From NCBI RefSeq assembly GCF_006716235.1, contig NZ_VFOR01000002.1, positions 930,001 through 994,000 on the forward strand: 64,000 nucleotides of DNA, in the 5' to 3' direction. How positions within the stretch are numbered: the first letter of the stretch is position 1; each line of letters starts with the position of its first letter. The translations under genes were made by a program, and so were the position numbers. The notes under the pieces were generated by a model that searched no databases, was not told the origin of the DNA, and saw nothing but the letters and a program-made list of their open reading frames with translations. Source of the DNA: Propioniferax innocua (GTDB lineage: Bacteria; Actinomycetota; Actinomycetes; Propionibacteriales; Propionibacteriaceae). Of the stretch, positions 39,187-61,404 are shown piece after piece.

Positions 39187-40290
39187 TCAGTTACCGGTCT
39201 TGGGCAGGCCCTTCTTGCCAGCGCTGCCATTGCTCTTACCGGTCTGGCCCTTCGAGCCGCCGTCCTTCGAGCCACCGTCGCCGGGCTTGCCACCCTGATG
39301 CGGATCGGGGCCGATGAGCAGGGCGGTTCCGCTGTCGGCGATCGCACCGATGTAGCCCGAATCCTGAACGGTCATCTGGAAGGTACCGCCGGTCTCGGCG
39401 AGGTTGACGGTCTCGACCAGCGAACCGTTCTCCAGCTTGGCGATGTCACCATCGGCGGTGGTGTAGATCTTGATCTCGCCCTCTGTGACGGGCTCACCGG
39501 CCTCGTTGCACGCGGTGAAGGTGTAGGTCTTGCCGGTCTCGTAGGAGCCGGGACGTGCACCGCACTCACCGTTCACGCCGAAATCGACCACAACCGTGGC
39601 CGGATCGACGGTCGGGGTCTGCGACGGAGCAGGAGTCTGCGACGGGGCCGGGGTATCCGACGGAGCAGGAGTATCCGACGGAGCAGGAGTCTCCGACGGG
39701 GCCGGGGTCGGAGTACCACCGGAGTCCGGGTTGTCACCGACGATGAAGCGCGGCATGTTGCCCTCGGCTCCGGTCGGAACGCCGACGATGTAGCCGTTGT
39801 CGGGGATGTTGAACGAGAAGGTTCCGTCAGCGGCCACCGGAGCGGTGCCAACGACGTTGCCCTCGGCAATGACATCTTCGGCATTGCTCGAAGCGCCACC
39901 GTAGAAGGTGATCTCGTCGAACTGGGTCGACGGGGCCCACTGGTAGTTCTCATCGGTCTGCTCGCACAGCGTGAGCGTCGCCGAGGATCCCTCGAAGGTG
40001 ACCGGCATGGGCTCGGCGCACGACGCGCCACGGAAGCCCGTCGAAATGATGGCCTGCGGCTCAGCGGTCGGGGTTTCCTCGACCGAAGGCGTGGCCTCCG
40101 GGGTGGGCGTGGCCTCCGGGGTGGGTGTGGCCGAAGCGGTCGGGGTTGCCTCAGCCGAAGGCGTGGGCGTGGCCGTCACCGAAGGAGTCGGCGTGGGCGT
40201 TGCGGTGGGCTCTGCATGGGCCAGCGCAGGCACCATGGAGACGCCAAGAGCCGCCGCACCAAAAGCGGCCAGCAGACGACGTGCTGTCAT
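39187..40290 (-). CDS. Secreted two-domain Thr/Pro-stalk protein ending in LPKTGN
   Basis: The 367-residue protein has a signal peptide (cleavage after PALAHA, residue 26), a (T/A)P-rich stalk to about residue 78, a beta-rich domain to about 180, a second PS(D/E/Q)TPAP stalk, a second beta-rich domain to about 330 and a Gly/Ser/Lys tail. Both domains carry two cysteines and end alike (GTFSFNIPDNGYIVGVP and GTFQMTVQDSGYIGAIA), so they look like a diverged duplication. The extreme C terminus is KKGLPKTGN followed by the stop: a sortase-type LPXTG motif with no hydrophobic helix or charged tail. The start follows GGAAGGAAG. Function unknown. Confidence 0.82.
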   Translation of the reverse strand: MTARRLLAAFGAAALGVSMVPALAHAEPTATPTPTPSVTATPTPSAEATPTASATPTPEATPTPEATPSVEETPTAEPQAIISTGFRGASCAEPMPVTFEGSSATLTLCEQTDENYQWAPSTQFDEITFYGGASSNAEDVIAEGNVVGTAPVAADGTFSFNIPDNGYIVGVPTGAEGNMPRFIVGDNPDSGGTPTPAPSETPAPSDTPAPSDTPAPSQTPAPSQTPTVDPATVVVDFGVNGECGARPGSYETGKTYTFTACNEAGEPVTEGEIKIYTTADGDIAKLENGSLVETVNLAETGGTFQMTVQDSGYIGAIADSGTALLIGPDPHQGGKPGDGGSKDGGSKGQTGKSNGSAGKKGLPKTGN

Positions 40291-59936: not shown

Positions 59937-60060
59937 ATTTCAAGTTTATGTCTTCGCCGTTACCCAGGTCGTTACCAACATTTCACCCGACTGATATTCC
60001 TCCCCGCCAAAAGGTTCGCTAGCGTCCGCAGTGAAACCGCCACTCGCATCAGGAGTCGTC

Positions 60061-61404
60061 GTGCGCAGCCTTCTCGCCCTGGTCATGGGACCATTCATGT
60101 TGTTCGCAGCAGCCTTGGGAACCTCGGCCCCGGCAGCGGCCGAAACACCCGAAGTCACCATCGCCACCTTCAACGCGAGCCTCAACCGGGATGGCGCGGG
60201 AAAACTCATCGACGATCTCTCGACCGGTGATGATGAACAAGCCCAGAACGTGGCGGAGACCATCCAGCGAGCCGAAGCGGACATCGTTCTGGTCAACGAA
60301 TTCGACTTCGACGCCGAGGGCAAGGCCGTCGATCTGTTCCGGGAGAACTACCTGAACGTCTCGCAGAACGGGGCTCCCACCGCCGACTACCCCTACGCAT
60401 GGAGCGGCCCGGTGAACACCGGTGTGCCCAGCGGATTCGACCTGAACAATGACGGACAGATCGGCGGCCCCGACGACGCCCTCGGTTTCGGTGAGTTCCC
60501 CGGGCAGTACGGTTTCGTGGTCTACTCCAAGCATCCGATCGCTGAGGATCAGGTGCGCACCTTCCAGAACTTCCGGTGGGCCGACATGCCTGATGCGTTG
60601 CTCCCTGTCGCAGAAGACGGGACCGCGTGGTACTCCGAGGAAGAACTCGCGATCATGCCACTGTCGTCCAAGACCCACGCCGATGTGCCGGTCGATGTGA
60701 ATGGCACCACCGTGCATGTGCTGGCTGCCCATCCCACGCCCCCATCGTTCGATGGCCCCGAGAAACGCAACCAGCGTCGCAACTCGGACGAGATCCGACT
60801 GTGGCACGACTACGTCTCCGGCCATGCCGATTACCTGTACGACGACAACGGCCAAACCGGCGGTCTGGATGCGGGGGCGAACTTCGTCATCGTCGGTGAC
60901 TACAACTCCGACCCGAACGACGGTGATTCTTGGCCCGGTGCGATCGATCAGCTGTTGACCGCTGAGCAGATCCAGGATCCGAAGCCGACCTCGCCCGGCG
61001 GTGAGGAAGCGGCCCAGCAGGGCGGTGCCAACACCGATCATCAGGGTGATCCGAGGCTCGACACCTCCGACTTCAACGATGATCCCGCCCCGGGCAACCT
61101 GCGCGTGGACTACGTGCTGCCCAACGCGGCGGCCGATGTGAGCGATTCCGGGATCTTCTGGCCCACCAGCGACAACCCGCTGAGCAGGCTCACCGGCGAA
61201 TACCCGTTCCCGACATCAGACCACCGTCTGGTGTGGATCAAGGCCAGCTTCCCGGGCCAGACCAGCGAACCGACACCTTCGGCAGAGCCCACGACCGAAC
61301 CCACTGGAACTCCTGATCCCACCGGTGCTCCGACAAAGTCCCCAGGCAACTCGACTCCACCTCCCGGAGCTCCCAAACGCGGTCTGCCGAACACCGGGAA
61401 CTGA
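60061..61404 (+). CDS. Secreted endonuclease/exonuclease/phosphatase-family protein ending in LPNTGN
   Basis: From the GTG at 60061 (AGGAG 5 nt upstream) the protein has 447 residues: a signal peptide ending around SAPAAA, an EEP domain (VTIATFNASLNRDG, VLVNEFDFD, HPIAEDQVRTFQNFRW, ANFVIVGDYNSDPNDG, TSDHRLVWIK near the end) and a Pro/Thr/Ser-rich stalk. Asp and His of the metal-dependent active site are present. It could be an extracellular nuclease or phosphodiesterase. The C terminus is KRGLPNTGN and stop, again an LPXTG without a membrane anchor. An in-frame GTG at 60031 with TAGCGT 5 nt upstream is an alternative start. Confidence 0.85.
   Translation: MRSLLALVMGPFMLFAAALGTSAPAAAETPEVTIATFNASLNRDGAGKLIDDLSTGDDEQAQNVAETIQRAEADIVLVNEFDFDAEGKAVDLFRENYLNVSQNGAPTADYPYAWSGPVNTGVPSGFDLNNDGQIGGPDDALGFGEFPGQYGFVVYSKHPIAEDQVRTFQNFRWADMPDALLPVAEDGTAWYSEEELAIMPLSSKTHADVPVDVNGTTVHVLAAHPTPPSFDGPEKRNQRRNSDEIRLWHDYVSGHADYLYDDNGQTGGLDAGANFVIVGDYNSDPNDGDSWPGAIDQLLTAEQIQDPKPTSPGGEEAAQQGGANTDHQGDPRLDTSDFNDDPAPGNLRVDYVLPNAAADVSDSGIFWPTSDNPLSRLTGEYPFPTSDHRLVWIKASFPGQTSEPTPSAEPTTEPTGTPDPTGAPTKSPGNSTPPPGAPKRGLPNTGN

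Follow-up and report, generated by a model that had tools for sequence, protein, structure and literature searches.

The window analysed here, a 64,000 nt stretch of the Propioniferax innocua genome, encodes two exported proteins that end in GLPxTGN followed directly by a stop codon. The relevant features are:

39187..40290, minus strand: exported two-domain stalk protein of 367 aa, ending GLPKTGN-stop
40213..40290, minus strand: signal peptide MTARRLLAAFGAAALGVSMVPALAHA of the stalk protein, read by eye
39187..39207, minus strand: putative tail-less sorting signal, LPKTGN and stop (CTGCCCAAGACCGGTAACTGA)
60031..61404, plus strand: exported endonuclease/exonuclease/phosphatase-family protein (PF03372) of 457 aa, ending GLPNTGN-stop
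61384..61404, plus strand: putative tail-less sorting signal, LPNTGN and stop (CTGCCGAACACCGGGAACTGA)

The stalk protein, in which Pro/Thr-rich stretches separate two small domains, has the C terminus GSAGKKGLPKTGN and a TGA stop codon; the original prediction of an LPKTGN motif at the extreme C terminus with no membrane anchor was therefore correct. The 457 aa protein contains an Exo_endo_phos domain (PF03372, E 3.5e-28), and its last residues are APKRGLPNTGN, also followed by TGA. No reading frame after either stop codon gives a hydrophobic helix and a basic end, in agreement with the earlier view that a simple frameshift is not responsible. The second domain and tail of the stalk protein (39187-39720) share 44-45% identity with the C termini of L060 and L059, which are a 5'-nucleotidase whose gene lies immediately upstream of the window and a protein of contig 6, and this shared segment would be a shuffled domain-plus-signal module. 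A database scan with the window protein as query found no relatives. The window protein itself is local, and the recurring part is its ending.

A whole-genome pattern search for LPxTGN-stop identified 2 sites in the 2.79 Mb genome, both inside the window, and the reversed control pattern gave 0 matches; the search for further G-L-P-x-T-G-N ends that had been proposed with the original prediction, run here on genome DNA, thus returned just the two window sites. When any last residue was allowed, seven real cases and one chance match were found. In this genome, a minimum of seven exported proteins stop exactly one residue after LPxTG (N, N, L, V, I, R and V), the five outside the window being:

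just upstream of the window: 5'-nucleotidase, ending GLPKTGL-stop
elsewhere in the same genome: four further exported proteins, ending GLPSTGV-stop, GLPKTGV-stop, GLPNTGI-stop and GLPKTGR-stop

Because the last residues vary, the final position is not specifically Asn, and the length of the ending is the feature. The original statement that the protein ending at 61404 finishes in the same way consequently stands for length and for LPxTG, but its emphasis on Asn as the last residue does not. The in-frame tail lengths recorded in this genome were one residue in seven matches (the chance match included), two residues in one and nine residues in two. A 1256 aa protein with the C terminus LPSTGSTPGLAGAGMAAMALLTLGGVCIRRR has a classical signal with helix and basic end, and on contig 1 two class C-type sortase genes adjoin the genes for two proteins with LPxTG plus helix (LPATGA... 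and LPETGV...). As the same genome carries both kinds of ending, the classical and tail-less forms coexist.

The tail-less ending recurs in the Propionibacteriaceae. Our survey covered 117 genomes of the family and retained 98 tail-less proteins, which were concentrated in genera g28 and g14. Genus g28 is Tessaracoccus (records L079 and L083), and g14 includes Acidipropionibacterium timonense (L082); g14 probably also holds the cutaneous Cutibacterium, as judged partly from sortase content. Tail length was recorded in nine genomes by a search that accepted any tail of 0-30 bases before TGA, with the P. innocua genome counted apart. Among the matches listed for the eight relatives, the in-frame tail was a single residue in 58 of 71 and 2-10 residues in 13 (two residues four times, three residues six times, and four, five and ten residues once each), and none of these 71 listed matches had a zero-residue tail, in which LPxTG is followed immediately by the stop. 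In an alignment of 77 tail-less proteins only L, P, T and G were invariant, with the consensus RPGLPxTGx. Position x of the motif was basic (K, R or H) in 63 of the 98 proteins. The last residue was V in 26, N in 20, A in 18 and R in 14, with others making up the remainder; N is over-represented because one search demanded Asn, and Asn was rejected as part of the signal.

The passenger domains of the tail-less set are unrelated to each other, and include DUF5979, 5'-nucleotidase, Exo_endo_phos, F5/8 type C, SpaA, calcineurin-like phosphoesterase, SdrD_B (SdrD-type adhesins), thioester domain, ExeM-type nuclease and choice-of-anchor M. Their domain make-up is that of wall-anchored proteins. By a rough test, a signal-peptide-like N terminus was present in 55 of 70 complete tail-less ORFs versus 126 of 347 control ORFs. 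The presence of the ending on seven exported proteins in one genome and about 100 in the family, attached to unrelated domains, supports the original suggestion that the short ending is meaningful. A hydrophobic helix after the stop was absent, in any frame, from 97 of the 98 tail-less genes; the single match, in the +1 frame of L202, is apparently the 5' end of an adjacent gene. Frameshift, stop read-through and a split anchor gene were accordingly rejected. In 393 genomes from other families of the class, the pattern yielded background only (out-of-frame or globular-protein matches). A scan of 84,980 species for G-LP-x-TGN-stop, restricted to GC-rich codons and, at x, to codons with A in the middle, gave seven sites: five in Tessaracoccus, one in Acidipropionibacterium and one chance match in Nocardia. 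The variant short endings LAKTGTNA-stop (L105, G070) and LPATGEA-stop (L133, G026) point to the existence of LAxTG versions and of tails two or three residues long.

The 5'-nucleotidases offer a view of the ending among homologues that were gathered by protein similarity irrespective of their C termini. Of the 49 proteins in the tree, 16 end in LPxTG or LAxTG plus three residues or fewer, seven carry an LPxTG/LAxTG-type motif with a long tail, and the remainder have other C termini. Most members of one well supported clade that spans several genera (g4, g14 and g28, with g29) are tail-less; in this clade the linkers have diverged and the [RK]PGLPxTGx-type ending is usually kept. This retention in orthologues across genera is a further argument that the short ending is meaningful. 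The homologues are tail-less in several genera and have LPxTG or LAxTG with a helix in others. It had been anticipated that relatives might prove to be anchored and the window proteins decayed: some 5'-nucleotidase relatives do have a classical anchor, but decay of the tail-less form was not seen, and in the multi-genus clade it is kept with an intact LPxTG. It should be noted that the C-terminal anchors of Propionibacteriaceae 5'-nucleotidases have been swapped repeatedly (L104-L133, L278-L297), with LAxTG plus helix, LPxTG plus helix, tail-less LPxTG and other types represented, and that the 5'-nucleotidase of L287 has what looks like an SLH-type ending.

The P. innocua genome encodes four sortases: two class C-type enzymes beside pilus-like genes, one class E enzyme (208.7 bits versus a cut-off of 160) and one divergent protein (C1:791960-792709). 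The last of these meets the sortase family PF04203 (35.5 bits versus a cut-off of 26.6) and has class F (NF033748) as its best family, and we call it 'class F-like' because its 64.2 bits fall below the curated cut-off of 166. Its AlphaFold model, with an N-terminal membrane helix, matches solved sortases and has a mean pLDDT of 83, with values >94 through most of the catalytic domain. Across 40 class F-like homologues His158, Cys229 and Arg242 are invariant, and the catalytic cysteine lies in a C-x-D motif, mostly CWD. Two additional conserved cysteines, C92 and C191, are visible in the same group (alignment A1; P. innocua protein at L248:1501-2250, minus strand) and could form a disulfide.

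Class F-like orthologues were found in 44 of the 117 family genomes, comprising 22 of the 24 genomes with tail-less proteins versus 22 of the 93 others (Fisher 1e-9, uncorrected for ancestry). Counted by genus, the sortase was present in 9 of 10 with tail-less proteins versus 5 of 19 without (p 0.0017, likewise ancestry-uncorrected). The association is thus significant by genome and by genus, and shared ancestry may be its cause; an independent-pairs test had too few pairs. One of the two exceptions, G001, has tail-less proteins without a class F match in a fragmented assembly (540 contigs, 90% complete). In the other, G082 of genus g14, the class F-like sortase gene is split into two frames (L300). 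No other sortase was found in G082, and its 5'-nucleotidase gene is interrupted by a stop (L300, L294), which suggests joint loss. Conversely, a class F-like sortase was present and no tail-less protein was detected in 22 genomes. In G013 and G103, PF04203 detected no sortase, yet both have a class F-like gene and tail-less 5'-nucleotidases. In G052, G110 and G104 the class F-like sortase has tail-less genes a few kb away or less, and in five other g14 genomes the sortase neighbour is a classical LPxTG-plus-helix protein. Classical LPxTG-plus-helix proteins are thus encoded in class F genomes too, and beside the sortase itself, so tail-less proteins are not the only substrates of class F.

Taken with the length rule, these data lead us to propose that LPxTG plus one C-terminal residue is probably a membrane-tether-free sorting signal processed by the class F-like sortase. 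Several other readings were weighed. The tail-less proteins could carry decayed anchors, the helix and basic tail having been lost by nonsense mutation so that the proteins are now secreted and LPxTG is a relic. The existence of 5'-nucleotidase relatives with LPxTG or LAxTG and a helix, and of classical signals in the same genome, is in keeping with such decay, but around 100 proteins with an intact LPxTG and a stop at one fixed distance are not, nor are the lack of a remnant helix after the stop in every frame, the tail-length spectrum and the conservation of the ending over a multi-genus clade despite a diverging linker. We consider decay improbable. Chance or annotation artefact has virtually no probability: the reversed pattern did give about 20 to 25 matches in the 117 genomes, but the forward pattern gave more than 100, most of those in relatives end long exported proteins with P/S/T linkers, and the 393 genomes outside the family lack matches of this kind. 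The match numbers refute this reading.

It is also conceivable that the class E or a pilus class C sortase anchors the tail-less proteins, or that these are joined to pili and not to peptidoglycan. One class E and two class C-type enzymes of P. innocua are candidates for this role, and some tail-less proteins carry SpaA/DUF5979 domains typical of pilin-like proteins. We regard this as unlikely, given that G013 and G103 have tail-less 5'-nucleotidases without any other detectable sortase, and that the class F-like enzyme is the one found in all but two of the 24 genomes that have tail-less proteins. Terminal LPxTG-X might instead mark the protein for a non-sortase process or partner (a protease, glycosylation or a wall-binding partner), or protect the C terminus. 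Such a role would fit the lack of a classical tether and the frequent basic residue at x (63/98), which known LPXTG sortases do not need. However, the conserved residues spell out precisely the sortase motif, at least one residue always follows Gly, and sortase-type linkers and domains accompany the motif, leaving a non-sortase role very improbable.

Under the proposed class F-like route, we infer cleavage, anchoring, the identity of the sortase and a mixed fate of the proteins from the ending, its recurrence, the length rule, conservation and co-occurrence. A tail-less protein would be exported by its signal peptide, known as an N-terminal sequence alone, and fully released outside the membrane. 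The LPxTG that closes a Pro/Ser/Thr/Gly-rich, wall-spanning linker would then be captured by the membrane-bound class F-like sortase (C1:791960-792709 in P. innocua), which would cut between Thr and Gly, with a two-residue Gly-X peptide as the leaving group in place of a transmembrane peptide, and couple the protein to a peptidoglycan precursor. A substrate that has no hold on the membrane would probably escape in part, so that tail-less proteins would be both surface-bound and secreted.

The helix and basic tail are held to be essential to the sorting signal, keeping the substrate at the membrane until the sortase finds it. If our model is correct, tethering would be dispensable in vivo, as a family that has dropped the helix and tail from many surface proteins would show, and class F sortases would gain a physiological substrate class. 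The model would also account for tail-less proteins being seen both on cells and in the medium. By a narrow balance, we favour the broader view that class F sortases of Propionibacteriaceae, including the only C. acnes sortase, routinely anchor exported soluble LPxTG-X proteins without a tether, as a distinct route. LPXTG predictors that demand a helix would then miss the tail-less proteins, and many proteins of skin bacteria such as Cutibacterium, overlooked by these tools, would join the surface proteome.

The tail-less ending probably works as a sortase signal, yet it fails two defining classical features. It resembles the classical LPXTG signal in having the same pentapeptide, placed close to the C terminus and behind a P/S/T-rich linker, the same kinds of passenger protein and sortases in the genome; unlike the classical signal, it has neither a hydrophobic helix nor a positively charged C-terminal tail, and the chain ends one residue past Gly and would therefore not be retained in the membrane. 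The observation that the tail is never of zero length among the listed matches agrees with sortase A, for which a C-terminal LPXTG needs at least one following residue (PMC8229434); a free carboxylate on Gly may inhibit the enzyme (PMC4723074). S. aureus sortase A puts soluble LPETG-amide into the wall, and soluble LPxTG peptides are poor substrates in this species, 0.5-1 mM being needed (PMC4723074). Sortase-mediated ligation tags (LPXTGG and others) establish that a soluble protein ending shortly after LPXTG works in vitro, again with at least one residue following; these tags are engineered, whereas in Propionibacteriaceae the short ending appears to be the natural form.

The one sortase of C. 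acnes is of class F (PMC7913060), has LPXTG specificity and joins LPQTGE peptides to glycine nucleophiles (PMC7451113). This SrtF presumably belongs to the class F-like group found here, all 40 members of which match the NCBIfam class F model, weakly (64 bits for the P. innocua protein versus a cut-off of 166). Among the matches listed, to 25 families, there was no NCBIfam model for the tail-less ending. Our literature search found no description of a family-wide one-residue ending, and DsA1 (PPA2127) of C. acnes was the only case found of an LPXTG protein without a helix. Like the tail-less set, DsA1 has LPXTG without a membrane-spanning domain or charged tail, and may be surface-bound and secreted alike; unlike that set, its LPXTG is at position 411 of 432, with about 17 residues after it (PMC5527093). 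Neither a family-wide one-residue ending nor a link to class F sortase is described for propionibacterial LPXTG proteins in the available portions of PMC5527093 and PMC3848858, and those of PMC3848858 make no mention of tails. The family-wide class thus seems undescribed, one adhesin (DsA1) having already been noted without a tail.

PMC3848858 puts the number of C-terminal LPXTG proteins in cutaneous propionibacteria at 12-18 for each species, nucleotidases and phosphoesterases among them. In the same study, shaving the surface of washed cells released the C. acnes 5'-nucleotidase PPA2097 (73.4 kDa) and a C. granulosum phosphoesterase (H641_06353, 84.5 kDa). Tail-less 5'-nucleotidases of a tight g14 subclade are about 73-74 kDa (four at 73.1-73.8), and the tail-less phosphoesterase of G110 (PF04185) is 84.7 kDa. 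By mass and annotation, the two shaved proteins match tail-less homologues.
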